This document shows positions 599-60,400 of a stretch of 64,000 nt of DNA, piece after piece. This DNA comes from Antedon bifida. Lineage: Eukaryota; Echinodermata; Crinoidea; Comatulida; Antedonidae. Below the pieces are notes generated by a model. The model saw only the letters and a list, made by a program, of their open reading frames with translations. It ran no database searches and was not told the origin of the DNA. Made by a program: the position numbers and the translations under genes. The stretch's first letter is position 1. Each line of letters starts with the position of its first letter. The DNA lies in the NCBI GenBank assembly GCA_963402885.1, contig OY727098.1, forward strand, positions 8,117,001 through 8,181,000, written 5' to 3'.

Positions 599-19040
<18,442 letters not shown>

Positions 19041-33400: not shown

Positions 33401-36400
33401 ATACATTTCCTTACATTAACTGTCAATGTTATGCTACTTGGATAGATTAATGACTCTCTATCCAATGAAACAAGTGTGAATAATTCTCCTGTAGATGAGT
33501 TGATTCTTAATAAAGATTGAAAATCTGTAAAACAAAAAAAAAGGAATTACTTGTTGTAATACAAAATTGTTTATGGTAATTAAGCAAGCATATGTAAAAA
33601 TCATTACTATGTAAACATACTATTTGACTAGATAAAGGAATCCAACAGCTTCTGATATAGTCCATGCATGCCCACCGTCCCACATCTTTATATTGTTAGT
33701 GTTAGATATTTCTTTATACAAAAAATTAAATATTCTCATTCCCTTTCTTAAAGGACTACTTTACCGAGAACCATATTTTGACAACATATTAGTGATATAC
33801 ATATGATTTCCGAACAATTGTGAGATTTACGATTTCGCTGTGCGTGCTTGCTGTACAGTCATCGCCGTAAATTGCTGTGGCGCCAAGTGTGCTTAACAAA
33901 ATCTACCTCATGAATTTTCACTGTTGTTAACATACTGGAGATGGGTACCCGTCATTTCAATTGCTAATTTGACCTGTATTTAGGCTTTGCCATAATGTTT
34001 AGTCTGTTATTTGAAGAAACACATATAGCAATTTACGGTAAAGTTGTCCTTTAACAGATGTCTATTAATATTATAATTACTAATGTTATATAGTAAATGA
34101 TCACCTTGATATGTTGTATCTATTATTGAAAATGTCAATTGGCTTTGAGAATCATCTGGATCAATTGCTTCTATGTGACCAATAAGAGTAGAAGCAGGTA
34201 AGTTTTCCTGGATATCAAATATATAGTGGTCCATTGATGGCAGTGGTGGAAACTCATTGACATCATCTACAGTAACAATAACCTTTGGGAAGAAAGAAAT
34301 GAAAAGTTAGGATTGAGCAAATTTAAAAATGAAAGTAATTGTATTATATTGAGTATCTGGTATAACAATAATGTTAATAACCCTAATATTATATTTGGGA
34401 GACATTATTAAACTGATATTTCCAGAGTCCATTATTTATTTACCTGTCATACTACTGTGATCAAAACATTATTGAAAAAAACATATAGGTGCTCTGCATT
34501 ATGGCAATGATGCAGTTCTCCTGATCTATATTATATATTGATGTTGTTTTGTTTGCTTTCAATGATCATGTAAATTCTCCCTTTTTTGCCACCAAACAGC
34601 AGGACATGTAAAAGGGTTTTCACCGATTCATTTACAGTATGTGGCAGGGTTGGTAAGGTACATATCATCTGAGACAGGTAGGGTGCATATCTGAGACAGA
34701 GTTTGAATCAAAACGATTTGCTTTTGTGACTCGAAAATAGAGTATAGATTAGTATAGTATAGTCAACCTTCTATTGACTATGTATAGTGCAAAAGGATTC
34801 TTTCATACCTGTGTCGAACTCTCCCGTCTGTTATTGGCTGAACCAGATGGATTATCTCTTGCTGTCACAGTGAGAGTATACACAGCTTCATTCTCCCTAT
34901 CTAATGGAGCTGAAACAATTATTTGACCCTGTCAAGAAAATATTTTAAAAAGCGTGAGTGAAAAGGCATAATAGTTGATGGTTAACTGTTGATCAGATTG
35001 GAATATAAAACTATAATATATTGTGCCACTAAAAGCTATCCTGAAAGTGGTCTTAATTTTATTAATTTCAATAAAATTAACCCTTTGAAGACGTGGCCCA
35101 TATTCCATACGGGGTAATTTACTGTCTCAGGACGCGAGGCCCGTATATGTACGGGTCGACATTTTGGGGTCACTGAATTGCACTTTATGAGCATTTGACC
35201 TTTGACCTAGGTAAAAAAAAAATTTCAGAAGGCCAAAACATTTCACATAACAACAAAACAAACAATTGCAGAAAGTTACAGTCATAAAATGTATTTTGCA
35301 TTTTTCCTAAACCTATTAAAAATTCCTTATTTAGCCTCAGTCACTTGGAGTAGAAACCTCACATCTTCAAAGGGTTAAAATGTAAAAATAACTTTCTTAT
35401 TTAAAATAATATAAACAAAGATACAATGGCTGAATAAAAAGAAGGTACATACAGTCATTTTATCAATGCTAAATTTGCCTTGACCTCCGGACAAGCTATA
35501 TTCAACCATTCCAAAGTTTCCTTCATCAATATCATCAGCTTTCACTTGTAAAACAGGGGCACTGACCATTACATTCTCAGAAATTCTAACATGATATTCT
35601 GTCTCATTAAACACTGGATTGTTGTCATTGATGTCAAGAATCAGCAGATCAAACTGTAGCATTCCTAGTAGGGTTGGAACACCACCATCTGATGCTTGGA
35701 TCAAAAAGACTAATTTCTCATTCGATTCTCTGTCTAATTCTTGGTTAAGAGTTACTTGACCAGTTGTGTTGTGAATTACTATAATATCTGTTTTGTTTAA
35801 TAAAGTGTACATAACTTGACCATTTATATCAGCATCAGGATCATAGGCCATAATGTTCAGGATGACATTACCAACTGGAGTACCCTCTGTAACACTCTCA
35901 GTTACAATGGGGCTGGCAAACATTGGTGCATTATCATTTTCATCACTGATTTCAATACGCACAACAGCTGCAAATTAAACATTAAAATCAATAAATAAAA
36001 AAATTAAAATAATTACTGAGCATGAACAGATATCTCTTAAGCTAGATAAACCAAACTACTGTAGTGTTGTAGACAAATTTAAATACACTATTCTTTTACA
36101 AAGAGAAAGTAAAAATGAAATAACAGTTATTACCGTTAGGGTCAGAAGTACTTGGAGCAATAAGAGTTTCTAGATCCTTGGCTTCCACAGTTATTTCCAA
36201 GCGTACAGCAATCTCGCGATCTATACCCTCATTTGCATAAATATCACCTGTAAGAGATTCTAGATGTACAAAATCCTGAAACATACTTGTATCTGATATT
36301 AAGTTACTGTTACCATCAAATGCAGTTATAGACACAATTGAGTAGGAGATGTTTGAGTTTGTATCATCATCCTCAGCATAGACAGTACCAATCAACATCT

Positions 36401-39400
36401 GGGCCGCTGAGTTTTCCTGGATGACGTAATTACTAATAACAGATGTAAATCTTGGAGGGCTGTCATTGACGTCCAGAACATAGAGGTTAACCATTGTGTA
36501 TCCTGTTTGAGGTGAAACCCCAATATCGGAAGCCGAAACAATCAGGTTGTAAATTTGTTGTTGTTCAAAGTCAAGAGGATTGGCAACCTAACAAAATTAA
36601 ATATGTGATTTGTAAAATACAGATGTAGTAAACAATATTATATAACACCTAAATAAAATCCTGTCATTTCATTGGACGATTGTGGGTCACATGGTGTGCA
36701 ATTATACTTACTGTATTGCTTTTGAAATACAACAGCGCCACCTATTTTTTACTTATGCCACGAAGAATGAATGTTATGACTGGTTTCACGATGGAAGTTC
36801 ATTTTTGGAGACGAGTGTTTGGATTCAACCCCACAATTGCACACTGCACCACACGCCATTACTAAGGTAAAACTACTATTACCCTCATTTACTTTATCTG
36901 ACCTGTGGTCTTTGAATTTTGTGGAAATCTGCTTACAAAACTGAAAAAAAAAAATAAAAAAAGAAAAGAAAAATACCTTACCTTAATGATACCATTTGAG
37001 TCAATAGTGAACTTATCCAATGCACCACTGTCAAGTTTGAAGGTCAAAGAGTAACCATCAGGATCGCTTGCAAATAGCTGAATAACATTTGTACCTAAAA
37101 TAAAATATATACTTAAAAGTTTATTTATTTAGAACCTGAAATGAGAGAGTTGATGAAATTAATTTGAATAAAATCAATACACATTTTGTGATGGACCACA
37201 TGACTAACAGCCAATCAACTGGCCTATTGTACTTCATAACAAGATTTTCAATATAGAAAAGATAACATATTTTATCTTAAATGACTCCAAGATAATAACA
37301 TGTAACAATCTATTTAAGAAGAGTAAGAAGATAGTGAGGAAATAAAATTATGTTCATAAAATATAGTATGGCAATAAATTACTAAGGCAAAAAATAAAAA
37401 CTTAGTAACAACAGTATAAATAATAATCGAAAACATCTTAGTAATCAAAGAGTAAATATTTTATCGCTAAAAATTTAGGTAATGTCATTTTACCTTGAAT
37501 GGCATTTTCAGCAATAGTTACATTAAGAACATCTTGAGAGAATACAGGAACTTCATCATTTACATTGGTAACAGTTATATTGATAGTAGCATAAGCTAAA
37601 TCACCTCCACTTTGTATTGCTTGTACATTAAAATAGTAAGATGCTTCTTCTTCATAATCCAACACAGAGGAAGTTGTAATTATACCTGAATAGATTAATC
37701 AATAAAACAATAATAAAACCCATCAATCGCAAATCACTGCATATTTCAGTAAATCTATATTTGTATAGTAGTTGCTTCTATCTTTCTGCACACTATGGTG
37801 TAACAATATTCCAAACTTTAATCTCTAAAAAAGCTGATGATTATTTTAAAACTAAATAAAGATGTATTCTATTCAATAAATTAATAAAGTGATTTTAACA
37901 ACACCATTACCTGTTTTTTGATCAATACTGAAAAATGAGGAGCCTCGACCCAGTAAAGCATAAGTAATATCATTACTTGAACCTGTATCTCCATCTAAGG
38001 CACTGATTGCTGTAAGCTATTTTAAAAACATAATTTTGGTTTAGATATAGAAACTGAATACAAATTTCATTCCAACTTTTGAAATTTTATTACTGCACAT
38101 TTTGTTTAGAAATTATCATAATAAACCAATATTTTCTAGTACTTACCATTTCAATTAATGTACCACTTGGCTGGCCCTCTTGTATTTGCCCATAATAGAG
38201 TAATGTGGAAAACTCAAGTGGTAACTCATTTATGTCCAATACTGTGATTGTTACTGTTGTAGTTGTCTGAAATTAAACATTAGGAATTAAACATAAATGT
38301 TTAATGATAGAGATGATGTGTCAATGTACTGAAAACATACTTGAGAGAACCTAAATGTTATAGTAATCAAGAATAACTATACTGTATATTTACCGTTCTA
38401 CTGTCTCCTAGGTTGTTCAAGTTATCTGTAGCAGTAATCACAAGTTCATATAAACTTTGAGTCTCGCTATCCAAACTTCTGTTGACAAATATCTCTCCAT
38501 TCATCTAAAAGATTGAATAACAATATATTCAGGCCTGTACACTGGGCCGTAAATTAAAATGGGATGGGGAATTTCACTTAATTAGACAGCTTATTTGGAA
38601 TTTTCAGAAGCAGCTCAAAACATGAACCTGTATTTAGTATTATTCTAATATTGTTTTAATTATCAAATATATATATATTGGGATTTTGTGAACTACAGGT
38701 ATCATCATAAAAGAAATATTCAATATTCATATTCATATCCAATATAAAATAATTACATATATTGTTTATTTATAAATGTATAATTAGTAATTCTTAATAA
38801 TTGAAAATTATACCTCATCCATTATAAATGCACCATTAGTATTTCCCTCAAGTATACTCAATCTGATTGGTTGAAATTCTTCACTGTCAATATCGTATGC
38901 CTCAACTTGAAAGATGCTAGCACCTACACTTTCATTTTCTGCAACACTGACTTGATATGGAAGGTTGTTGAACACTGGACTGTTGTCATTTTGATCCATT
39001 ACTTGAACATTTAATATCATCTAAAATAAATTAAATTGTTTAACTTTCGTTTTCAGTTGGCCATTAATCTTCAGTGGCATCACACAAGATTTCCAAAATA
39101 ATTACAAACAAATATGTAAAAGAACCATTGATTGGAACATTGCAATGCAATTAAACTAAATAAACGGCACATAAAATATTTAAATATTCAAATTCTATAA
39201 TTAATTATAAAGAAGAATGTACCATGCCAACTAGTGAAGGGCTTCCCATGTCTGCTGCCAAGATGGTGATATTGTATTCATTCTTCATCTCATAATCCAG
39301 AACTACATTCCCTTTTATTGATAGTATACCTGTTATAGTATTGATACTGAATGTATCTGAAAAATATAGATAGATTGTATTTGTTAATTATTGCAAATAT

Positions 39401-42400
39401 TTTTTGTTTTGTCTTAGATTAAATACTATTTACTACATTATAATAAATAAATTTGTATCCTCATCAACACCACTACGTCCTAATAAAAAAATAATTACAA
39501 ATTCGTTATAAGGTTGTTACTTAAAAACTATTACATTTTAATATTTATATCTTTGTCCAACCAATATCACAACTGTTTTGGAATAATAAATTACCTTTGA
39601 ATTGGAATAGTATATGGAAAAACCTACTTATTGTACAAATTGGAAGATTTTACAAAATTGTTATTTGACTAGAATTTTCTTCACAAAACAGGAATTGCAG
39701 AAAATAAAAACTGCCATTTCTGCCACGACGGCGAAATTGACTATATTGAAGCATTTCTTAATATCATGTTCTAAAGTAATAAGCCACTCTGGTATGGCAT
39801 TACAAAAATTATATTGTCGATTTCTGGAAGGGGTATCCACTTGTCAATCATTTTCGGAATAGATAATGATGAATATTGCTTCAAAAAGGACCTTTCGTTT
39901 AGAAATAATACAATATTAATTTACAATAATATTGTTTATTTGTATTAACTTTTACAGTATCCAATGAAACTTTCTTTCATATGACCTTTGTACTGTTTTG
40001 AAAAAAACAATATAAAATTAGGGAAACAGTGCTCATATTCGGAACATGATCTCATACTTGAGTCGAGCATAGTTTATTGGCCCCAGAGACATTTTTTCAT
40101 ACATTGATACAAAAAAATAATGAACTTTCGCCAATGAGCTATGCTCGACGCGATTATAAATTGCTATTTAGTTTGCTTCTGACAATCCTTGGCATTTGTT
40201 TACTTTATATTGTTTTGTATTTTTCTGTAATTTTTGTTGTGGTGAATCAATCGCATAAATTATCAACATCCTTTTCTTGGATTTGATTAATTAATTACCT
40301 GTCGATTCATTCCCCAATGAATAAAGAATGCTTCCACCGAGTCCAAGATCTGCATCTTGGGCAGTGTATGTTCCCAGGTATTCACCAGACCGTCCTTCGG
40401 GAATGACGAAAGGACCAACAAATGAGGAGGGAAATGTTGGGAAAACATCATTGATGTCCTCTACTTCCACTGTTAGCTAAAAACATTATGAAAAATTGTA
40501 TATCAAATGATTAACCTTCTAACCATCACATTTTATATAGGCATTTACTAATATCAAATCTTGGAAGATGTCAAGTGGAAGATTATCAAATGTAATTTAT
40601 TTTATTTATGTTATTTACTTACAGTTGTCGTGCCAGTTTGTCTGTTTTTATCACTTTGATCAGTTGCTGTGACTATAAGTAGATACTGTTCAGTGATTTC
40701 TCTATCAAGAGCCTTTATTGTTTTTATTAATCCCTAAAATAATCAACATTGCTCATAATTATTATTTTTTCATAAAATCGGATGTAAGTTAGGCATCTAC
40801 AGATGTTCCAAAATTGGGTAGCTTGCTTGGTGAAATGTGCCAAAAAATAATATGATCATGTAACACTACTTTTTAAATATATAATATAATAATAATAGAG
40901 AAGGAGAAAACATAGCTTGGGTTCAGTACCATAGGGCCTAGGCTTTGGAACAATCATATAGGTAATCGAAATCTTTGGACAGTTTAAGTTGACAGCTCTA
41001 TGAGCAATGTTTATTGGATGGGTGCTTTACAAATGGAATGATTGATTATGTAAGGTTGCTGTATGACTTTTTTGGTGTTTTCTATCATTTCTAAAAATAC
41101 TAAATACTAAAATGAATTAATGTTTTTTTCTAGAATATATTTTTTTCTTACCGTTGTAGAGTTAATAATAAACAAATTGTCAATGTTTCCTTCATTGATT
41201 GAGTATTCAACATCTCCATTGCTTCCAAAATCTGGATCATTTGCCATCATCATAGCAACCACAACCCCAACAGATGAGGGACCCTCAGCAATAGTGACTG
41301 ATTGGCTGGCTGGTTCAAATACAGGTGCATTATCATTGTCATCCAAAATAGATATGATTACATAAGTTGAAGCCTAAAAGTCAAACATATATTCCATGTG
41401 ACATCAATGTAAAATCTTGGAAAAGGTACATCAATGTAACACTTAATAAATAACGCAGCATTATTTACGGATTTGTCTTTTGCAAACATAAAAATATGTA
41501 TCTAAGTATCTAACCTGCATTGGTGGTTTGCCAAGATCTGTAGCAGTAACAGTAAGATTATACAATGCTTCAACTTCTCGATCCAAGTTGATATAAGTTG
41601 TTGTGATGTTACCCGAAACTGCATCTATAGTAAACACACCAGGATTTCCTTCAGTGATATCATATCGAATGTCACCATTCCCAACACTATCGGCATCGGA
41701 TGCTTGCACCTGGACCACAAATTCATTGGCCAAAGAGTTCTATAAAAGAAATTTAAGAATCAAGAAACGTATGAGAAAGACATTTTTAAAAAATTAACAA
41801 ATGAACAGGTTTATATAGACGTAAATTATGTTAAATTAGTTGAGACTCAAATTCAAGAAGTCAAAGGAGAGGGAAGGACAGGTCTATTCAGTCAAGAAGG
41901 TTGCCTTCTTATTCAGGCAAATCAAACAAATTATAAGTACACTACACTATATTACATTTATTTACTACAGAATTTAGAGTATAAATTTCTAATATGTATG
42001 GTCTGGTATTGTTGGTCAGTTACACACATACTACAGGTTTATAAGGCTATTAAGAAAACATCAGTGTTGCTCTTTTTTCATTTAAAATCTAGTGCATCCA
42101 CTGGAAGAAACAATGTAAAGCCTATGAAAACAGAGTGGTTGTTGAAAAAAAAACCATATATACCTCTTGAATGCTAGCAGTAATATATTCCTTGACAGTA
42201 AACTCTGGAGCATTATCATTTACATCCTGAACTGAAACTGTTATCAATAAGAAATTTTGCATTGAAGGGATCCCTCTGTCTGAAGCAGATACCTAAACAA
42301 ATATTAATAAACATTATTTATTTTATTTGGATACATTTTTATCACGCTTATCTTGTGTGTCGGTGAAAACAATATTTAATACTGCAAATCAAGGAAACCA

Positions 42401-45400
42401 ATTAAAATATATTAAATAAATAAACATTTTAAAAAATGTATAAGATGGAAGTTATAGTGTTATATTTAAAATTCTGATATACAGTACTTACATTCAGTAA
42501 AAAGGTTGATTTTGTTTCTCTATCAATTTCAGATGTTGTATTAATTTGAACCCAGTCATTAGTTAAAACTGATAAACTAAAAAAGTCATCTTCATTCCCA
42601 CTTACAAAATTATACAAAATCTACAAACAAAAGATAATTGTAATAAATATATGAAGTACTATACTGTATTATTGTTTAGTGTTTAGTTTAGTTTTTGATT
42701 GAAATAAAAAGCTGGCCATGTAATACAACCAGTAAAACTTTCTCATAGAACTAATTAACCTATAGCATGTGATACAAATTAACCAATCAAATGTCAATGC
42801 GTGTTTTAATAATTAATCAGATATAACAAATTGAAACAAACCTGTGAATTTGGACCAATTTGATCTTTGTCTGTTGCTATGAAGGAAACAACAAGACTAC
42901 CAACTGGGCAATTCTCCATCACTTCTGCAACGGTTTGGGAACCAACATTAAACATAGGCTTGTTATCATTCACGTCAAGGAGTATTACTTTAAATAAAGC
43001 TGAGCCTCTCTCTATACCATCAGATGCAAAGATTGTAAATGATATATCTGAACTAGCTTCTCTGTCAAGAAGGGCAATAGTTGTAATTTCACCCTAAAAA
43101 GAAATACAAATACATACATATTACTTAGGATAGGAAACAATCACATATTTGTATTGGCATTAAAAATAAAAAATTATTATTAACTTATATCAAACAATAG
43201 CTAGACCTCTTTTGCTCAATTGGGACATAGGGCCACTCTTGTGGTGGTTTACATAATTGATTTAACTAGTAGGGTTGTTAGACCAATAGAGGCTGAAAAC
43301 ATGACAATTAATTTAGGAATCCAATGGAATTTGGGTCGTCTGAGTCTATTTGTGGGTAATAAATGGTGATTTTTTTTTTAATGAAACAAACAATAATATT
43401 TTATAAATTGTTAACAAAATTCATTAGTAAAAATAGTCAAATATGGTACATAGAGTATCAAGTTATAGACATTTTTTAACAAGAAATTGTAAATATTGTA
43501 CCGTAGCAGGGTTTATCTCAAACAGGTTTCTAGCATCACTATTGGCATCAATGCTATACACGACTGATGTCTGTCCATCCCCATCCACTGCTGTTACCTA
43601 CAGACATAAAAAACAAACAATTATAACAGCTAAAAGCATTTCAGCAAATATTACTTTTAGGTCTAGATAGTTATTTGTATATATAGTATGTTACGTTTAT
43701 TTGTATGTTGTTAGCATTTAATTACTTATGAAAAATGACAAATTAACTTTTAGTAAGTAAATATATGTCTTTGAAGTTAGCTAGTTCCTGTTCCTTAATT
43801 AAATTAAAGGGACAGGTAAAATGTATAATTAATGAAAAACATGCAGGTATATAACCATTAGCAAGCTGGATCCATGTTTAACTGACTGGCAACAAATTGG
43901 GTTCAGCTTTTATTGATCACATAATTAAGTACACTGAAAAGATTAAGTTACACTTTCACTTTTTCCACTTAGAGGAGGGAGATTTAAGTGTCTGAATAAC
44001 TGCAGAAATAGGATACTACATTTGCATACCTGCATAACTAAATGTCCAATCATGACATTTTCACTAATATAAGCTGTATAAACTGTGTTCTCAAAGATTG
44101 GTACTTCATCATTCACATTAACAATCATAATCTCAACTTTTGCATATCCAACATTACTGGGTGGTGCCTGATCAGTTGCTGCCACTGTCAGTGTATAATT
44201 GCGATTGGTTTCATAGTCAAGACTTCTTCTTAATGATAAAGATCCACTTGTCGGGTTCAGACCAAACATATCCATCTGGTTGCCTACATGAAAATACACA
44301 ACTTACAACATAACAAAATAGATACTACTTGCGATCCACTGCAATGACCACAAAGTACTATTGATCATTATACATAAACACAACTTTAAGAAATCAAAGG
44401 CTTTATATAGTAACAAATGTTTCGCGCAGAAATACACAATGTTTGAAATAGGAATATGCCTAAGAAGTGAAAACACCTTGGCTATCAAGGAATGAAATAC
44501 AAAAAGAAACATTTGCAAACCTTCCATTAAAATAACATACACTTTTTAGTTAAGTGTTTAACAATCTGTTATTTAAACTACAAGTTGTTCATGTGTAGAT
44601 TGTGTAATAAATTACCATTGACAATGGTGTATGAGACAACACCAGCATCACCACTATCTGAATCTGTTGCAGACACCACTACCACAACATCATTCACTTG
44701 AGCATTCTCACTTAAATCAGGTCGTTGGTAAAGTTCTTGGGTAAACAGTGGCACTTCATCATTCACATCATCGACAGTAATGCGGACAGTTGCTAAAATA
44801 AATTAAGACATTAAAACCATAAGAAACAATGGAATGCAAAGAGCAAAAACAAAAAATATCTTGCTTACTTATTATATAAACACATCTCTATATATCTCGT
44901 TGTATATGTGCCAATTGAAGACAAATTTTTGTTGTTATACATTTAGGCTTTGTGTATATTTTCTGAGATTTGTTTACAAAAATGGCTTTACATTATCAGT
45001 GAAATTTCCCATAAAAACTAAAAATCATCAATTTATCATTTATTTACCAGTTGATTGTTGACCATCCGGATTAGCAGCCTGAACAAGAAGACTATGCAAG
45101 CTGACCGATTCAAAATCAAGTGCATTAATTCCCCGCACAATCTCACCAGTTGCACTCTCAATCATAAACATTGCATCATCATTTCCATTTATAATACTAA
45201 ATGCAATAACAGCATTTACACCTTCATCTGCATCACTCGCAGCAACTTGAATAATTGTAGTACCCATTGCAACAGTTTCTGCTATATTTGTTGTGTAGAT
45301 ATCATTTGTAAAAATAGGTTTGTTGTCATTGAAATCAAGAATTTGAATCATGACAACTGCAGTACTTGTCATTTGATCTGCTGTTATCGCACCATCTGTA

Positions 45401-48400
45401 GCCTGGATACTAAGGTTATAAGTAGAGATTGATTCTCTGTCTAGAGTGGTGGCTAGATACAAAAGACCTGTTGCAGGGTCAATTCTAAATACATTGCCAA
45501 TGTTGCCATTCATGATTGAGTAAGTTATTAAACCGTTATCACCTGGAATAAAATGACAGGTTAACATAATAATGTCATACACACTATATTAATAAACGGT
45601 ATCCTCATGTCAGTGTTTATAGTATCATTGATGTATAATTTTGTCTTGTTCACAACTGAAAGTGTTTATAAACTAACTGCATCTTAAGATAGTAAATACT
45701 ACTTACATTTTAGACATTCTACAATCAATAAGATTTCTATTGTTATGTGTTTCTTATTTATACTTGATGTATGTATTATTATCTGTTGTTGTATGAAAAA
45801 TAAATTCATTATTAAATTACATCTGCAGCATTCCTAATTCTGCGTTGGTAGGAGTTTAATTTATAAGAGATAATAAACATAGAACAAAAAGTTAACATTC
45901 TTTACCTTCATCAACATCTGAAGCAGATACTTCAGTAAGCAACGTTCCTGAAGCAGCATTTTCTCCGACTGACACATTATAAATTTCCGGAGTAAATTGT
46001 GGTGCATTATCATTAACATCCATCACAATGATTTTGACTGCCACATCAATAGAGTACTTTCCATCACTTACCAATGATTTGAGGGAATACTCAGTGATAG
46101 TTTCTCGATCTAAGGAGGTTTTTGTCGTAATTTCTCCAGAGGTGATATTGATTGTAAATTCCATTGATGTGTTTATGAATAAAAATGACAAACTTGAGGT
46201 AGAGTCTATATCTGAAACTTGTACCTAAATTAAACAGAAAAATTCATTTGCTTTAAAATAACATACAAATAATTTCTTTCGCATTTATCCTAAGCAACTG
46301 ACTAAAACATATTACAAATTGTCCTTTTAATAGGGATTGGCCGTAGTGTTAAACATTATACATAGCCCTCATTTGTTACACAGAAAATTGTCCACTATTA
46401 AGGGCCCCAAAGGAATGTACAGTACTACTACTCTCACTCCAGTTTATGGGCTTATTTTGATTTTGAAAAATTGAGCAAATAAAAACATTATGCACATTTT
46501 TATAAACATGCTATTATATTATTTATATAAACAAAATATCTTTCTGATTTTCAAAGTTTATTTTTGAATATTTCTTATATACTTTTATCTTTTCCTTGTA
46601 TGCTTTGTATATTATTATGATTTTGACCAATGAATTAATTAATATACTAATAGTATTAGTAATACATTGCATAGATTATTTACTACATAGTGTCTGTTAT
46701 AGGAAAAATATCTATTTGATTGCTTTGTTTGAGTTACCTAGACAGGCGCAAAGACAGAAAGTAAGACATTATCTAATACATAACTTAATCATTACCATTC
46801 CAACTGAAGTCCCTATTGGCGAATTTTCATTTACTGTAAAGATAAATTCAGAAAGGAACGATACTGGAGGATTGTCATTGACGTCAATAACCATAATTGA
46901 AATTTCAGCCAAGTTTGTGGCACTTCGAGACACATCTCCATCTGAAATACACAAATAGAATACAATTTTTCAGTACAAATCATTCAACAGTATTAAAGGT
47001 AGACATATACGAGTTGGAGCGTTAGTCTGCCAGATCATCACATTTATAAGTGAGATTCTGTAAACATTTGAAAATAACCCCAAAAAACTTACTATCTCTA
47101 ACATGAACAAACAGTGTGATGAAGCTAGATTCTTCTCTGTCAATTTCTGTCACTGTAAACAATTCCCCTGTGCTATCATTCATGAAAAAGGCTACATGTG
47201 GAGGATTTAGAGTGTATACCAGATCACTATTTTTCCCTTCATCAAAATCAGTTGCTTGAACCTATAATTAATAGCATCCAAGATTATTGTGATTGGTAGA
47301 AAAGTGGTTTTAGATAAAAGAGAAAATATTGTAGTGATTCTGAAAATCATAACACAAAAAAACATGGAAAAAACAAAATTGACAAATGACTATACCTGTA
47401 ACAATAAAGCAGGGGAACTTCCCTCGGTTAAATTAACAGAGTAAGAGTCATGGATCCATATGGGGTAATTATCATTTACATCCAATACTGTGATTATAAC
47501 AGTAGATTCTGTGTGCAGACTAGGCTGATGAAAATCCTCAGCTCTTATAAATAAAATGTACGATGCATTTTCTTCCCGATTTAGATGCTTGCTAAGTACT
47601 AAGTCACCTCCAGATGGACTCAGAGTAAATAATTCTGAAAATAATTTAAAATATACTAATTAGGTATAGATTATCAGATCTTATACAAATTTCAAATTTA
47701 GAATGCTAATGAAGTATATAAAATAAGATTCCTCAAGTATATTGGAAAAATTAAATTACAGCATTGATATTTTTAACATTCTTGATAGATAAACGTCACA
47801 TACCAACCGCCTGTGAAGTATGACTTCCATTTTTTCATTGTCTGTCTCTACACTTGTTAAGAAATGTTTATGTATTTTATTATATTTATTTTCATGTTGC
47901 TTATGATCCACTTCTGTTAATTTATAAGTTTATTTCTCTTTAAATGTTGAATGAAATGAAATGCACTAAAAAACTGCAGAAAGGTGAATGATAAGGAGAA
48001 AAAAATAACATCATTTTACCATTCTCATTGCCAGAAATAATTGAATATTTGATTTCAGCATTTAATAATGAATCTGCATCTGTAGCTGATACTTTACCAA
48101 TAGAGGTATCTGGCATCACATTCTGCATAAAAAGATGTATGGAATTTACATAAATACTGTAGGTCATAGTAATAATAATGATAACAAAATTGACAATTTG
48201 GCTCTCATCAAGATATATCCCGTTATCCTTGATATACGAGAAATAACTATTGATTATGTTTGGTAGATTAGTGAGAAAAGCGTGATGAGTGTTATTTTCT
48301 AAAGTATAATTCAAGATGGTCTTAAATTATTAAAATTTAATTACAAAAAACATAAATTTAATGTTATATAATTAGTAACAAAATTATGATTATTTATTAC

Positions 48401-51400
48401 AAACTAATGCTTACATGCTTAAAATTAAAAAAATAAATCCGTAAATGTTAAATGTATTACCTCTAAAACTTCAAAATTGTACTGTTCTTTGGTGAATACT
48501 GGAGCATTATCATTCACATCTTGAATGAATATTTCAACAATAGCTGTTGCCATACCAGTCCTAAAAAAACCAATAACAACAGTTCATATTAGTAACGGCA
48601 ACAGAATCAACCATATTCTCCATTTTGAACTGTGAAGCTTTTTCACCTTTCTATTTAATGTTCACAAGAACCAATAAATGTACTTTAATTATATTTACTT
48701 ACGCAGGTGGAACTGGCAATGATATAGCTTTAAATGTACTTTAATTATATTTACTTACGCAGGTGGAACTGGCAATGATATAGCTTTAAATGTACTTTAA
48801 TTATATTTACTTACGCAGGTGGAACTGGCAATGATATAGCTTTAAATGTACTTTAATTATATTTACTTACGCAGGTGGAACTGGCAATGATATAGCTTTA
48901 AATGTACTTTAATTATATTTACTTACGCAGGTGGAACTGGCAATGATATAGCTTCAGCACGAATTGTTAATGTAAATAAAGTTGTAGTCTCATAATCCAG
49001 TCGTCCAGTAGTTGATATATTCCCAACTAATGAATCAATAATGAAAAGCCCCTATAGAAACAACAATAACCACAATGTAAAGTATCTTTTTACACAATGT
49101 ATGTTGAATTTTATACCATGCAATAAAAATTACCATAAATTATCAATGATATTATAACAATTACTCCGAAAAAAGTTAGGCAAACCATAATGAATGTTTT
49201 TGAATATTTTTGAGTACAATGGTACAAATAATTTCATAAGGTGAAATATAAAAGGTGAAAATATAACATTACATCTTTCACCACTTTAATGCGCATGAAC
49301 CGCCATATAACAAAATTCAATAGGAACATAACAAAGTTGCACTCTTATTTATAACAAAATTGCACTCTTGATGACAAAAGAGTTCAATAGAGTAGATATT
49401 TAATATCATGTGACGCACAGTCCTAGAATCAAATGACAAAAATCTATTCAAATGTGCTATGATAATCATCCATGTTTATTAGTGGACCCTTTGACAAACT
49501 TAAATGTTATGAAAAATAAATTTAAATAAATAAAATAATGAATAAAAGATTATTTTACATCATCATTTCCGTCAATAATTGAATAAGTTGCAGCTGTGTT
49601 GTTGATGAGCTGGTCCCTGTCATTAACGGTGACTATGTAAACTTGTTCTCCTACTGTTGCATTTTCAGGTAAATATACAGTGATTAAATCTAAGAACAAA
49701 GATAAAAGCAAGTACAACTTATTATAGCTGTTTCTTGAGTGCATTTTATATATATGTATAAATTCATTCGTCTAAAGTATAATGTCAATACTGTACAAGA
49801 ACCTTCAGGCTCATCATAGCAGATGACGAAAGAATAATAATAATAATAACATTTTTTGTCATTTCTTTGTACTATCCATTCTGACTTTCTCTGACTCAGA
49901 GACGGTGTGTAGACCAGACGAAGTAGAAAAATAATATAGATTACTGTTGAAATTTTATAGTAATTAAATGAAGTAATATAGTGGATGTTATATCACACAC
50001 ATTGTTTAAATTGATGGTCATCCTTTGTGTCCTATTTTGCATGTGCGCATGCTTGTACCTCATACCTCATGTAAATATGATAATAAAAAGTAATGATCAA
50101 ATTTCAAATGGATACTTTCTCATTTTAATCTTTATTTGTTCATATTACTTACTATCTTCAAATACAGGGTCATTATCATTCACATCTGTAACTGTAATTG
50201 TAACAATAGCAAAAGATGACATCTGATTTAAACCTTGACCTCCATCCATAGCAACAACCTATGAAACAAATGGATCAAATTTAAATATTTTTAAATCAAT
50301 CAAATACATTTTCATTGTAATTCATGGGATAGATTGGCCAATTACATTTGGATACTTATTTCAAAGCTTGCAGTTTCCTTGCGTTTATTGCCATAGAATA
50401 TCACTGTTTTCAACTGTTTTTAAAATCAAAAACCCCTATCAGGGGCTCCCTTCTTCTTCTATTTTAAGGAGCAAACTTCATAGTTGAAGGCTACTGCTCC
50501 ACTAAGGGTCCCATTGTGACATCGGCAGCCAACTACGGCGCCAATACGTCTGTCCACGACAGTGTGTGTGTGTACGAATGAACTAGTACACCGGGGTAAC
50601 CCCCTACTCGTCTCGAAAGATGTACTAGGTTCTTTAAAGTGCACATGAGCCAGATGTACACTGGACCACGGTTTATAGTCCTTATCCGAGAAGACTTGTT
50701 CTACCACCAGAACCATGGAGCAAGTGAGCCTCGAACCCTTGCAAATGTTATGGCTATGGATTTCGGTTCCACTGTTTTAACCGCTCGGCCACACTCACTT
50801 TTCCATATTATGTATACTAATCTTAAAACATGCCATGAATCATGAAGATTTTGTGAGGTAATCGTTCAAAATTATTTATTATTAATCTGTTTCCATGACA
50901 TCTGTAAATTACATTTTAAAATGAACAATAGTATATCAATCTCCTAATGTTTTTAGTCTACGTATTTTTTATGCAAGTTTTATAACTAATACATTGATAT
51001 GATAGTGATATTGTTATTTTTGTATCATTTAGGTATTAATGTTTTTATATATCTATATAGTTGGTTGTAATTTTATGTGTGAAAAACTAATATTGTTAAA
51101 CTTATATTTTTTTTTGAATAAAGTTATTCGTATCATATCGGTACTGAAGTTGGATACAGACTTAATAATCATAAAAAGGGGCTTTCCTGTTATTGATCAA
51201 TTCGCCAAGAATTTGATTTCTAATTTTCCAGTGGAAAATCAGTATCTATCGTGATAGATTCCACACTTAAGTAGCTGCTGACAGGATGAAGCCTTAGCAA
51301 GCCAATCAACCGATTGAGAGTAGGCAACCCAAGTAATGAGACTGCGGTATAAAGCAGAGTTCATTAACTGTGTCATTTGATATAATCAATGTCTCTTTTC

Positions 51401-54400
51401 AGGTTTTCTGGTATAATAATAACTAATTTTTTCCAATAATACTTTTTTTATTTTTTAAATAATTTATTTAATTTAATTTTTATTTATGTTTCCATTGAGT
51501 TTCAGCATTGCCATTTCTGCCATTTGCCTTTGGAATTGAATTCGAACTTTGTTATGAATGTTGTATTTTTACTCACTTCAAAAACAACTGTATGCATTTC
51601 ACCATCTGCATCAAGGGCTGCTATTGAGGAAATTTTTCCAGACACAGCATTTACTGTAAAAAAGCTATTTGGTTGCCTCAGTGAATAAAGAATTGATGGT
51701 GTTCCAAACAAAGAACCATCGTTATCTGTTGCTGAAACATCCAACACTGTCTCTCCATTTGCTAGATTTTCTGGCACAATTGCTTCATAGCTTGGTTGCT
51801 CGAATACTGGTGTATTATCATTTATATCCTTTGTAAAAAACAAATATAAACATGACATAGTTAATGCTGCCAATGAGGAAAAGAAGCTGCCAATGAAGAG
51901 GTTTGTATTATTACATAAAGCTGTTTTTGCATTCATTAATTTTTAAAATAATAATATATTCCATAAAAAATTTCTGCATACATTTATATAAATTAAATAC
52001 TCACAGCAATATATACATTGATAGAAGCAAAATCTTGTAGACCTGCTGAATCTTCAGCTACCACTGTCATAACAACTGGATTCATAGTAGTAACCTCAAA
52101 GTCTAAGGCATCTATTGTGTAAACATATCCATTGCCATCATTGGTTGTTGTTATGATGAAGTTGTTGATGGATGTAGTTGTTTCTTTAGTTCCGTTTGAA
52201 AAAGTTTGTAAGAAATAGTATCTTACATAATTGTTGGAAACATCTGGATCATTTGCCTAATAATAAAATGTTTGAATTAATTTTCCAAATGCAAAAATTT
52301 AAAACCTAGCCTTGTTAATTAAATCTATCAGGTAAACAGAAAAATGAGATTGAAAGCAGAATACAAATACAGTGATTGTATAACAACATCGCGCTCAGTA
52401 GCGCCCGGTAGTTAACATGAACTGTCTATTTGGCAGTTTTTTACTAAATAAATTGCATAAAACAAACAATTAAATATCCAAATAGCATTTAACATGATGT
52501 TAGCATGCAGTTGATAACATTTGTTATCATAAAAACCCTACCATGTACCACCTACATGGCTTGGCACATGACCATCGACATTCAATTTAAGATGGAAGTG
52601 GGGAATAAATTGAGAAATAATAGCAGTAGGTGTGTTTAATCCATAATATAAAACATATATACTTTGCCTATGTTTCTGGTTAAAACTACTGTTTGGGTCT
52701 TGGCTGCTGGGGCTACAATTCAGTGAATGCCTACTATTTTGGAGACACTTCCCATAGTTTTAATCACAAACTCTCAAGACAAAGTGTATTTGTATATGAC
52801 TTACTCGGACAATTGTAACTTCTTTTCCAACACTATACATTTCATTTTCATTAATGTGAGCCTCATATAATTGCCTTGTAAATTGTGGAGCATTATCGTT
52901 GACATCCATCACATTCACTGTTACATTCTTAAATGCGCTCTTAGGTGGAATGCCACCATCTACTGCAGTCACTGTCAATAAATAGTTTTGTTTCTCTTCG
53001 TAGTCTAGTTGCTGTTCCACTGAAATTTCACCAGTTGTTGAATTGATCTCAAATCTGCAGGAGTTTTCAAAGTGTTTATAAAAACAAATCATTCTGATAA
53101 ACATGTATTGGAACAATTTATATTATTATTAGTTTGCTGTATAATCATTATGCTTATATTGATATAAAGTTTGCGGTACACCACATATATTAGTTCTGAA
53201 AAGAACTGTTGAGTTTCTCCTGAGGATGATCAAAGCATATTGATCGAAACGTCGAGAAACTCAACAGTTCTTTTCCGCAAACTTTATATCAACATTTGAT
53301 TTCGCCATGCAAACCTTCAAATAATACATTATGCTTTTATGAAATTTTTTTAAGTAGTTTATGTCAACTTCTGCATTGACGGACTTCTTAGAGAGTTTTT
53401 CCAACTTGAGTACCTAAGTCCTTGATTGACACTGAAATGTTTAAGCTGAGAATAAATTATGGTGCATACCTGTCTGACCCACTCAATGTGTAAGTGACCT
53501 CACCAAGTGACTCCAGATCATTGTCTATAGCAGTGACCTTTATTACAAAGTAACCAATCTCAGCACTTTCATATAGATCAGCAAAGTATGTTATGGAGGG
53601 ATCAAACGTTGGTGTATTATCGTTTTCATTGATTACATTAATCATGATTAATGCTTCACTACTTAATGTTTCAGTGGTAGAATCTGTAGCAATAATCTGT
53701 AAGAAAAAAATATGTTAGTCCCAGATTCTCCTTTTTGAATGTTCATATATGGTTTAGTTCTCTACATTCTATATTAAATACTAATTCCTGTCTAATTAAG
53801 ACGCAATAGGAGATTGAATGAAGCTGTTATGATAAAAAAGAAAGGTAGTCTTGGCGTAACGGGCCAAAAAATACAGGTTAAGTAGGTTTCTTTTTTTCTA
53901 CTCAACAAATTGTAGCTTATAGCTAGGTGAGAATATTTTCTAAATATTTTCCTGAAACTGTACTCTTCTCTAAAAATCATGTTCATTCTGGATGAGAGAC
54001 CGTATGTATATACCAAAGTGATGGTATAATGATAATATCGGACTAGCATGTGATAGGCATGGGTTTGAACAAATCTGTACCATACTAATTACATCCTCGG
54101 TAAGATGGTTTAATCTCATTTCCTCATCCTTCGGATGGGATGAAACGCCATTTGTTCTGTGTACATAGTGCATGTTAAAGAACTTTTTACACCATTTGAA
54201 AAGAGTAGGGGATAATATAGATAATGTAGGACAATATATCTTTAACATATCAACCCGACCATTGTACTGAGGTTTTTGAGAATATGAATCTCGTGCCCTG
54301 ACATTGCACTCTCACCTTGAGAGTGTTAAGCACTGGACAGCAAGCAAAACAATGCAGTGCAGCTGTTTCAGCATCATGTACAGTTTTTAAAAGCACAAGC

Positions 54401-57400
54401 AAATAATAGATAACTATAACTTTCCTTTTAAAAAACATAACAGATCATTTTTATTTATGAATCATTTGTATACTTACTTGAAGAGAGTATGATTGTCTAC
54501 TTTCATAATCAATGGATTGTAAAAGAGTAAGGTTAACCACTGTACTACCGGTAGCTTGCAGTGGATTCGGACTAAAAAGCTCAGAATACATGCCATGGAG
54601 GCGCAGTGTGAAATCTGCATTGGTTCCCTGATTATAAGATACAAACAAATACAATATTTCAATATTGCACAATTTTAAGTTCTAAAATGGTAAAATATTT
54701 TGTTATAATAAATATAGTTATTTGAAATAAAGTATGTTAAAGTAAATACTACTGCCATCATCATTGTTAACTTACCAAATCTGCATCACTCACTACAATC
54801 TGTAGAGGTAACTGTTGCCCATGTTGAGCAAATTCTGATATAGAAATATTATATTGTGATTTGCTGAAAGTAGGTGCCTGATCACTCACATCCTCTACCG
54901 ATATTGAAAAAGTGGTTTTAACAGTAGCATTACCACCTACTTCAGATGCCTAAAAACAGATTTTGAAATAAAAACACATTTATTTTCTTTATCTACTCTG
55001 GTTTTTTCACTCTTTGAAATTTAAAGACAATATCCTTGCATTTTTTCGATATAATTTAAGGTCACAAACTGCAATTTATGTAACAATAAATACTACATGT
55101 GCCTATTGCGATAATAATTTTCGTCTTAAAATGTGAAAAATAAGTTTACTCTAATAATTTAATTTAAGCGGCCCGCTATAAATACCAGCAAGCATTGCAC
55201 ATGGATTGATCATTTTGCTTCTGTAATGCACCCACTTTTGGTGGGATCGTGAAAATACCAGGTCTTCCCTGATTTGTTTTACAGATTCTGCCAAAATTCA
55301 ATTAATTCAGTAACGAAACAACGCCAGACTAGGCCTACAAAACTGAGCCTAGCTTTTTATCAGTAATTAACCATAGAATGTACATTTTAAGACAAGGGAT
55401 GACCTGGTTTAATGTTTTAAAATAATATATATATTTATAATAATATGCATTATTTTCAGAAACTGTTAACAAATAGTGTCTTTACAAATACATAATCTTT
55501 GTAAAATGCTTCAACTGACTAATTGTACACCACTCTGAATTGATGGGACGCACATATATGGTGCGTTTACAGAGAAAAGCAATGAGAAACAAATCACACA
55601 ATTTCTGTAATTCATTAAGAATATTTAGGAAACATGAATATGTATAATTACCATCACTGTAAGTTGTATAATACCAGAGAAGCCCTGCATTTCTCGGTCA
55701 ATGAAATCAATAACAGTTATGTTGCCAGTAGTTGGATCAATATGAAAGAGGCCTGCCTCATTTCCCTCAACAATACTGTAACTGATCATGTTTGGAACAC
55801 CAGTGTCTTGGTCAACCGCACTGACTGTGGTGACAACAGTACCCTAAAAGACAATGTTATACTACATAATGCTATGTATGAGGAATGATAGAGAACACAG
55901 AATATAATGATTCAATGTAAAGGGTTGGTGAACAACAATAATGATAAACAGATCAAAACTGTAATATACTCTTTTTTTATGATTTTCACTTACTATTGGT
56001 GCATTTTCTTGCACTGTTGTAGTATAGGGTTTATTTACAAAAACTGGCAGAGAGTCTTGGACATCTAGTACATCCAAAATAAATGAAGTGGTATTTTCAT
56101 AAGGTGGTGTTCCAAAGTCCTGTAAAAGTAAATTATGCTGTTCAAATACTCAATTTATAATGTTTATGTTAAGTAAGTCATTGTACTATTGATCTTATAA
56201 TATAGTACTACTTAATTGTATACTGATAGCATTACAAACTATATGAGCTATAGAAGTTAACTTACATTAGCTTTTATTGTAAACTGGTAAGATTTTGTGA
56301 CCTCATGGTTCAATGTTTCCTGTAAGCAAACTTCTCCAGATACTAAATCAACTGAAATAACTGAAGTATTCTGAAAATACAAATATTGGCAACTTTGACT
56401 ACAATATGAGTTAAGTACAGTAGTATCTCAAAACAAAAATGTTATTCATTTGATAAATGATAGTATAATTAGTAAACTATTAACTAATGTCACTAGAAAA
56501 TGTCACATGTACTTGTTGATGTATCAAAGATATTTACTACTTGTTGATGTATCACTGATATTTACTACTTGTTGATGTATCACTGATATTTACTATAACT
56601 GAACAAAGTGTGATTATGAAATACAGCACAAGCATCTTAAAAATCTAGCATAACTTGAATTTTTACACGATGGTATATAAAGTTGGTTTACACTTTCGGT
56701 ACTGATTTTAACCAACTCTGTTACTAATTAAGTTGAGTTGGATAATTAGTTATTGACAATTAAAATCAATTTAGGTTCAATTATTTGCTCCAAATAGGGG
56801 TATTTTCCGATAGTTTATTTGCGCTATATAAATCTATTATTATTATTATTATACAAACGTATTGATTGGCGATGAATGGAACATTCTAACCTCTCTCTCA
56901 GTATAAATATTTGATATAACACAAGTAGGTACATTTATGGGCCCTTGGGGGATAAACTTAAAACCTTTGACAATAAATACATAAACAATTTTTTGTCGCC
57001 TTTTGAAGTGCAAAACATTTCTTACTGTGAGTGTGGGTACTGTTAGATATATAAACACATATACAAATAAACTTTATTACTGACAGTTGCTTCTCAACGT
57101 TAATTGTATTAATTAATAATTCCAAAAAAATATAAACATTGTAGTCGTGCATCATGTATAAATCGTGCCATACCTCAAGTATTCGATATTCAGCACCTGT
57201 AATGCCTGTATCACTGTCAGTTGTTGAGATAGTAGTGATGACATAACCAACAGGTGTATCCTCCGCTATTGTAAATATATATGGTGTATTTACAAATTGA
57301 GGAGCATTGTCATTAACATCTAGAATAATAATAGAAGATGGAGCTTCAGTCTGTAAGAAGAAAAAAGCATTAAAGAATATTATCAAGTGGATTAATACTG

Positions 57401-60400
57401 TATACTCTACATAGAATATGCAATTTAACTGAATAAAAAGTGGCATGCAAAGTTATTAGCAATTATATAACACCTAAATAAATTCATGTCATTTGATTGG
57501 ATGAATGTGGGTCACATGGCATGCAATAGTATGCACTATTAAATGATCGTTTAATAGTACTTTTTTTCGTGTAAAAAAAATCTTTTCGCATTTGGAAAAT
57601 ATTTTGTTTTATACTATTGGACCGGGCTCCCAGAAAGTTTATTATATTATTATAAATTTTCCCTGGGAACACCAAATAGGAGGGATAAAAAATGGATTTA
57701 ATCATATGAAAATCCACACAGATAAAAGTTGTTGGACATTGTCCGCATATGTGTATACAATGTATAGGATGTAATGTATGGGATGCACAAAAATACCATT
57801 GACAGCAACTTTACTCTGTAAGTTTCCCCAGACAGTAGCCCAAAAATGCCTGTTGGCAATCATGCAAAGAGCCACACAGCAAATTCCTTTTACATTGTAA
57901 ATATTATCTTTTGGGATATACGAATACCGTTAACAGCACTTTATCCTGTAAGTTGCCCGAGACAGTAGCCACAAGTGACCACTCAAAAATGGTGTTATTC
58001 ATGTCAAGGGCCACATGGCTAATTCCTTTTGCATTGTAACTGTCACACATTGGGGTGCACAAAAATACCATTGACAGCAACCTTATCCTGTAAGTTGCCC
58101 CAGACAGTAGCCCAAAAATGCCTGTTGGGCCATACAAGATTTAATCATGGGAAGAGCTTATTTAGATGTTATATAAAACAAATAATGACTGTTTTATATT
58201 AATGTAATGGTACAAATAATGGCATTTGGTGAATGATGAAAGGTTAAATATTATCATATTATCATATTATATATATAACCTTTCATCATTCACCTCATGC
58301 CATTATTTGTATCATTACACTCATAAACATACATTATTTGTATAATATTAAATTAGTGATTACATATTACAAAGTGAAGTAGCAAATGAAATTCATTATT
58401 TCTAAGAATTCATTTACATTAATTTAGTTTATTTATTAACAACAATTAATTCTACAAAAAGACTAAATGCTGTTTACTGCTGATTTTGCTTGTCGGAAGA
58501 AGTTGTCAGGATTCGATCATGTAGGCCTTTCATGCACATTGGTTATAATAGGTCATGTGTAAAATGCTGAAATTAGTTTGTTTTTTTTATGCCATAAAAC
58601 ATTATATACTTACAGGATTATTTGTACCATCACTAATTGTAAATGAAACACCTATTACTATATCAGTCTGAAAATGAATCCACAAATTACATATTATATT
58701 TAACATATATATATATATATGATATTACAAAAAATCAGTAATGAAAGCACTCAGAAACTGAGTAAGTATGTGGCAAAATATATCAGGGAAAACATTATTC
58801 GGAGAGAGAGGGATCACACTTGATATTTTTTTAAATGGGTAAATGGGGGAATAACCTGCAACTTGCAGCATACTGGGCTGAATTACGCAAAGGTGTGGAC
58901 GACACAAGCCACAACATTCTTCTACCCTAAAGGTCCCTTTGTGTCGAGGACTGCCACCAAACGGCAGGTGTCGAGGCTTGCTGCCACCTGTTCGTCTGTC
59001 CACACAACGACAGGGGATGAATAAGGTTTATCGCAAATTGTGTGAGCGATGCATAATGGGAAGGGTTTGGGATCAATATCGCCACCACCAGTATATAAAG
59101 TTTGTATTATACGGTGGCGCTATTGCTCCAAAACCCTTCCCATCATGCATTGTGCAATGACATTTCTCGCGAAATCAAGGTATTTGTGATAAACCTTATG
59201 GACCAGTACACTGGGGTAACCCTCTACTCTTCCGAAAGATGAACTGGGTTCCTAAAAGTGCACACCAGATACACTTTTGAGTCTCCACCTTTAAGTCCTC
59301 CAGAACAATGGTCGAGGAGTGTCGCCTTGAACCTGTGCCTATTGTATAACTATGGTTTGGGGCGCTCCCGGCCTTAATCACTTGGCCACTTGACTGATGT
59401 TTTGGTACATGTGAAAGAATATATGTCCATGTTAAAGAATACAGAGGGCGCCCAATTTAATATATCTTGTATGAAAGACACTTTTTTTTATTTGTGAAGT
59501 TCAAGAACCGATTTGCTTGAATTTCAATAGGCATGTTCTGTAAGATATCTATTTACACATAAACCGAAAAATGATAACTTGAAAATTGTAGGCGTTATCC
59601 TGCTAACATACACACAAAGCAAATACTAAACTTGGCAAAATTCTATTTTGCAAGTAAAAATAAACAAGCGGTACATAATTCACACATACTGTAATGTAAA
59701 TGAATATGCGCTGTACCAAACTATTAACAACCACATTTGAATAATTACCAATCATGTAAGCATGCTGCTTATTATGGTGTTAATGGTATATGCACAAATT
59801 AACCATTAATTTGGCCATGCACTGAAATTATAGCTTGCTTGAATACAAACCAAATAATCAGTCTTGAAATAATGCATGCGAATAGTGTAACAGTCAAATA
59901 ATAGTTACTGTATTGTAGGTATGAGTCACGTAAGCATGATACTTTGCAGAGGCTGGTTGCCACTGGCAGTACGTGGCCACATCAACACATATTTTCTATT
60001 ATTTTTCAGAAATAAAGTTTACCTCAGCATCTAAGCCTTGGGAAATTCGAACTTGACCATTGACAGGTCCAACAGATAAATAGTTAGGTTGTGATTGATC
60101 CTGCTTTATTATTCCATAAGTAACTGAAGCACCCTCTGGATCACTTCCTGATAGTGTTAATATCAGACTCCCTATAAGAAAACAAATAAAACAATAATAA
60201 TTGAAAAATCATAATAGATATTTCATGAAAAATTCATGTGTTGTGAATGAAAGCGGTTGCTGTTATACTTTATGTAGACGGCCTTTTTTATTTTCTTATT
60301 CTTTACTGTCAAGAAAAATATACAAAACAGACAGAAATAAGTTATTATTATTATTATTATTATTAATAAAAAGAAATTATAAAGCTAATAATAAACTGCA

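Follow-up and report, generated by a model that had tools for sequence, protein, structure and literature searches.

A 64,000-nucleotide stretch of the genome of the crinoid Antedon bifida (assembly GCA_963402885.1, contig OY727098.1, positions 8,117,001 to 8,181,000; hereafter the window) harbors on its minus strand a large cadherin-23-like (CDH23-like) gene, in which one exon end and its 5′ splice site (donor) are present in five tandem copies. The gene is represented by a partial model at 21472..60554 (minus strand) that comprises 58 exons and a stop-free frame of 3838 codons, its ends being uncertain. The model was obtained by a splice-aware scan of the minus strand and is not automatic around the array, where three exons (49051-48927, 48560-48461, and 48122-48020) were set by hand using splice signals and reading frame. 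These replace a first automatic version that had skipped the array-bearing exon and invented an exon at 48320-48020.

Long protein matches to the model are mostly named cadherin-23 and show 33-39% identity (best 120 of 7412 matches). Within these listed matches and the alignment, Saccoglossus is the closest by identity (38-39%) and Branchiostoma reaches 33-36%; amphioxus CDH23 is not closer to that of Antedon bifida than hemichordate CDH23 is. A single alignment stretch links Saccoglossus CDH23 to residues 29-2000 of the model, a colinear similarity of the kind that identifies CDH23. The first three extracellular cadherin (EC) repeats of the model match the CDH23 chain 5w4t_C in one stretch, and CELSR1 and two protocadherins outscore this chain in total for EC1-3, but over several stretches. 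CDH23 contains 27 EC repeats, which were counted in the model as far as EC8. Seven inter-repeat linkers precede the array-bearing exon, which places this exon in EC8, provided that the model starts in EC1. Judged from sequence, the gene is CDH23-like and the array exon lies in EC8, as the original prediction had proposed.

The array spans 48675..48954 on the minus strand, its start having been given one base later, at 48676, before. It comprises 5.0 copies of a 56-bp unit that are all identical. Tandem Repeats Finder (TRF) and direct unit comparison agree on five tandem copies of an exon’s 3′ end plus its donor. The TRF row has a period of 56, 100% matches, 0 indels, and a score of 560 (the runner-up among the 8 rows of the window scores 158), and unit-by-unit comparison finds a single 56-bp sequence common to 5/5 units. 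In a shifted register, a single mismatch appears in the last unit, at 48955, a base outside the array. Read on the minus strand, the unit consists of 28 exonic bases ending in TGC followed by 28 intronic bases starting with GTAAGTAAAT; the earlier description of a 56-bp unit across exon end and donor was correct, except that the intronic part was put at 24 bases. In a DNA search of the whole genome (315.6 Mb), which scores the best candidates only, the array and the 801 bases around it were each found in one place.

The copies had been called nearly identical, but their identity is complete. With 0 differences in 224 compared positions, divergence is below ~1.3% (95% bound, copies taken as independent). 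The identity fits the very recent expansion suggested earlier, and a young array is probably what is seen, but homogenisation would mimic youth and give the same picture.

The EC8 exon is located at 48927..49051 (minus strand, 125 nt), and ends in 28 bases that make up the exonic portion of array copy 1. The subsequent intron at 48561..48926 (minus strand) measures 366 nt as assembled and 142 nt without the four extra copies. It is followed by the next coding exon at 48461..48560 (minus strand), which is joined in phase GC/G and reads TGMATAIVEIFIQDVNDNAPVF.... Across the 48927/48560 junction, the encoded protein ...VPPATGMATA... matches ...VDPATGSATA... of Saccoglossus CDH23 without a gap. 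A longer alignment of the junction is gapless as well (model ...SLPVPPATGMATAIVEI..., Saccoglossus ...GVPVDPATGSATATVTV...), and the other eleven proteins in it show two- or four-residue gaps immediately ahead of the junction. The gapless Saccoglossus match therefore points to donor 48927 and acceptor 48560 as the junction that the protein needs, and the acceptor predicted at 48560, which joins in frame, is retained.

Each of the five identical units carries one GTAAGT, which yields five equivalent donors 56 bp apart on the minus strand, as anticipated. The donor of the exon-attached copy 1 (48921..48926) is the only one that keeps the frame; splicing after 48927 leaves it open. Use of copy 2 (48865..48870), copy 3 (48809..48814), copy 4 (48753..48758), or the intron-proximal copy 5 (48697..48702) would retain 56, 112, 168, or 224 nt, respectively. 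In all four cases, an in-frame TAA follows directly after the junction alanine, which puts termination at residue 865 in the partial model and bears out the immediate stop expected for read-through. The donor had been described as strong, which is true of positions +1 to +6, where TGC/GTAAGT matches in full, but not of the poor position -1. A C as last exon base is unique among the 57 model donors, a count that is biased because the donor matrix of the model gives C at -1 almost no weight; the model score of this donor (-4.86) is subject to the same bias. The shortest of the 57 modelled introns has 127 nt (the floor of the model is 45 nt), and the pre-expansion intron of 142 nt is near that length. 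Thus, given the frame and the 142-nt intron, the protein stays intact with the exon-proximal donor, and the intron keeps its expected pre-expansion length with the intron-proximal one.

In kind, and by its structural features, the array is a “mirage” minisatellite as already described in amphioxus. Amphioxus mirages are minisatellite-like tandem duplications of exon–intron boundaries in globin genes (BflGb6 and BflGb9) and Adh3 genes, and many of their units contain splice signals, according to the relevant part of PMC3087553. The Antedon bifida unit likewise spans an exon–intron boundary (28 + 28 bases), which is backed by the frame and by Saccoglossus CDH23. Its 56 bp are of minisatellite size, compared with 10-72 bp in Adh3 and 150-160 bp in the globins. 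Mirage copies are homogenised within their cluster, and the identity of the units here (5/5) may reflect such homogenisation or youth alone. The array differs from the amphioxus cases in the complete identity of its five copies, in the gene concerned, which is CDH23-like, and in an organism that stands outside the cephalochordates. Mirage length varies in the amphioxus data, BflGb6 having 6 units in one haplotype and 3 in another and somatic instability being reported for Adh3 (PMC3087553), and copy number may vary in Antedon bifida too. In literature titles and abstract openings, no multi-copy donor array was found; the amphioxus mirages are described inside PMC3087553.

Near-perfect arrays, defined by a match of at least 96%, a period of at least 20, and at least 3 copies, are common in this genome. 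Three occur in a sample of ten 10-kb stretches, one of which is all N (90 kb readable), and two in the window, including the EC8 array. The other one in the window is also part of the CDH23-like gene (56510-56595, 3.1 copies of 28 bp, 96% match) and lies away from splice sites within an intron, flanked by the model exon that ends at 57174 and the one that starts at 56370. In window and sample together (154 kb, either strand), three spaced GTAAGT motifs were found in the EC8 array alone (3 matches). Genome-wide, three GTAAGT motifs at array-like spacing gave 951+996 matches versus 2368+2233 for the reversed pattern. Three MAGGTRAGT motifs at such spacing gave 66 matches in 12 distinct places (as counted here), and the reversed 9-mer control gave 90 matches in 17 places; a few of these places consist of one match each and might not represent arrays. 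There is thus no genome-wide excess of arrays that bear donors (12 places versus 17 for the reversed 9-mer), and since donor places are not commoner than control places, no donor-specific process is needed to account for them.

Five of the 12 donor places were fetched, picked for a coding-looking unit, and L014 was added from the GTAAGT search. In four of these five, the array lies at the end of an open reading frame flanked by splice signals, and two of the four have Pfam matches above the cut-off. The first of these two (L013, C1:2676001-2678500, minus strand) is a STAT5-like array of 15 full copies of 69 bp at the end of a coiled-coil exon (STAT_alpha, E 9.3e-10). Its donors AAG/GTRAGT are intact in 15/15 copies, 36 of 1035 positions over the 15 full copies deviate from the majority base, and a stop is located directly past the first donor. 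The second (L015, C12:27264501-27266200, minus strand) ends a DUF2045 exon (Pfam E 1.4e-9) with 9.0 copies of 69 bp at 99% match. Here, read-through meets no stop, and each copy would contribute 23 residues. Two further arrays are probably exon-end arrays as well. L016 (C15:571201-572700, minus strand; 10.0 copies of 55 bp) ends an exon that reads NELTYIDTSPQTVLRLQDR; on visual inspection, this exon connects in phase to another exon of the locus, and its Pfam match stays below the cut-off (E 0.14). In L016, the duplication junction itself creates CAG/GTAAGT, and the far-end donor is CAG/GTACAG. The exon of the fourth reads MDSFDVAVEYWENAIDSAPNPPQ, carries 4.7 copies of 55 bp, and has no family match. 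For the arrays at L014 and L017, no clear coding exon was found.

The EC8 array is, with good confidence, a real minisatellite that arose by tandem duplication over a splice junction, the exon-proximal donor being used and the array remaining silent in the intron, where it is most likely neutral. A 56-bp segment made up of the 3′-terminal part of the EC8 exon and the 28 intron bases that follow it would have been duplicated in tandem and then expanded to five copies through slippage or unequal exchange. As the first copy stays on the intact exon and the last copy on the intact intron, the original exon and donor are unbroken. The spliceosome most likely pairs the exon-proximal donor 48927 with acceptor 48560, so that the array is removed together with the intron. 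If the exon-proximal donor wins in this way, duplication over a donor is harmless. With regard to the initial event, PMC5730883 attributes tandem duplications to classical nonhomologous end joining (cNHEJ) of breaks with protruding ends and reports that nearly all of those made without cNHEJ show microhomology. The unit ends of the array (GCTG/AAGC versus TTTA/TTGG) share no microhomology; a cNHEJ origin is a plausible route.

Several points weigh against this choice of donor or favor the strongest alternative, in which the intron-proximal donor 48703 or a mixture of donors is used. The messenger RNA would then keep up to 224 nt with a stop and decay, and the sequenced individual would carry a hypomorphic or null CDH23 allele. 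Among the matches listed in the protein searches, no transcript evidence was seen; a near-identical transcript-derived protein was not found, with best identities of 36% (best 120 of 6583), 39% (best 120 of 7412), and 43% (best 120 of 341). According to human work in PMC6002489, the intron-proximal of two comparable donors is favored for unknown reasons; Hodson 2012, as cited there, found that U1 binds both comparable donors equally in complex E. Use of 48703 leaves the 142-nt intron, near the modelled minimum of 127 nt, and intron definition might favor it. In the human OCT1 gene (SLC22A1, rs35854239), a tandem duplication also creates an equivalent downstream donor whose use shifts the frame and truncates the protein, and this 8-bp duplication diverted 38-52% of minigene transcripts (PMC8137991). 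The OCT1 case differs from the EC8 array in that it is one extra 8-bp copy of the intron start, a common human polymorphism with measured splicing.

In liver, in contrast, the duplicated OCT1 donor accounts for only 0.3-0.6% of transcripts (PMC8137991). Regular splicing likewise seems to be unaffected by mirages in the amphioxus Adh3 and globin data (PMC3087553). The STAT5-like array has diverged, yet retains 15/15 donors and the stop after the first one; such arrays therefore apparently persist in genes that are likely needed. Judging by this persistence, splicing in Antedon bifida would seem to rely on the exon-proximal donor, and a damaging allele appears unlikely. In DOK7, both of two donors 11 nt apart are used, as reported in PMC5585400, a system too distant to decide the donor choice here.

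An assembly artefact, with a wrong or in silico expanded copy number, is less probable still. Perfect copies are hard to assemble, and in a draft amphioxus genome the assembly of one mirage was aberrant (PMC3087553). The 15-copy STAT5-like array, on the other hand, holds distinguishable copies in the same assembly, which argues that such arrays are not all artefacts, and the contigs that contain the window and the STAT5-like array are 28 and 33 Mb long.

Little probability is also given to a functional array, in which the extra donors would serve as U1-binding decoys or enhancers that tune splicing or the stability of transcripts, the level being set by copy number. The footprint of U1 covers 23 nt upstream and 12 nt downstream of the donor (Sharma 2011, as cited in PMC6002489). 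The 56-bp spacing exceeds these ~35 nt, so five U1 particles could sit side by side, and the C at -1 might, subject to the bias of its count, call for help. U1 binding by each copy is plausible, any role for it being hypothetical. Neither the MAGGTRAGT places nor the GTAAGT matches rise above their controls, and RNA folding of the array region is unremarkable (z -0.86; 20/100 shuffles fold equally well).

It is hardly credible that an intron is being gained or an exon created from the internal copies, an outcome that is known or has been proposed for repeats across such boundaries (PMC4974935, PMC3087553, and PMC2812944), since the unit lacks a good acceptor and introns between copies would have 31 nt, compared with 127 nt for the shortest modelled one. 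The original prediction had considered 25-base pseudo-exons, the first of four such pieces being 48871..48895 (minus strand), with AG before and GTAAGT after it. These are not credible exons: the AG ahead of each copy has no pyrimidine tract and scores -2.73 (the best other AG in the unit scores -1.42), compared with a lowest value of 0.03 among the 48 acceptors of the first model, which took positive scores only. Inserting one, two, or four of the 25-nt pieces breaks the frame, and three leave it open. In the Rogers model of intron gain, the duplicate supplies GT and a usable AG; here the AG is poor, the spacing is 31 nt, and the existing intron is merely lengthened. Splice signals are duplicated in tandem in potato RdRp, fission yeast, and Drosophila as well (PMC4974935, PMC3629103, and PMC2891723, respectively), with a duplication across the intron–exon boundary in potato and multi-copy 24-nt arrays in fission yeast. 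In these reported cases a new intron forms, whereas no new intron or acceptor is evident in the EC8 array. Human genes in segmental duplications also contain boundary minisatellites (mean 30-bp units, 4 copies) that alter gene structure, but the genes there are recent paralogues whose novel introns were deduced from transcripts, and arrays of the original donor are not described in the relevant part of PMC2812944.

Apart from the CDH23-like gene, the plus strand of the window contains an 829-residue open frame at 13447-15933, presumably of a non-LTR (long terminal repeat) retrotransposon protein, and coding exons at ~3475-12024, which are taken to resemble a Piwi gene. L006 carries a satellite-like array at 8346-10000 (72 copies of 23 bp, 84% match).

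The EC8 array offers a clean example of a mirage minisatellite, probably a recent one, set in a large gene and accompanied by similar arrays elsewhere in the genome. Exons of this type may be mishandled by gene prediction programs, as illustrated by the automatic model, in which the EC8 exon was missing until it was placed by hand. A broader proposal is tentative and, on balance, rather doubtful: exon-end donor arrays would be recurrent in this genome, outside the cephalochordates, with ~5-15 equivalent donors each, and the spliceosome would reliably pick the exon-proximal one. If this were true, Antedon bifida would follow a rule of exon definition opposite to the intron-proximal preference reported for human, for which the arrays would be ready-made tests. 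The DUF2045 array, where in-frame read-through adds 23 residues per copy, would then serve as a natural reporter; intron-proximal use at the EC8 array would truncate the protein. With ~5, 9, 10, and 15 copies, the arrays together form a graded series of equivalent donors, some in frame and some not, which could reveal whether it is the first or the last of several identical donors that the spliceosome selects.
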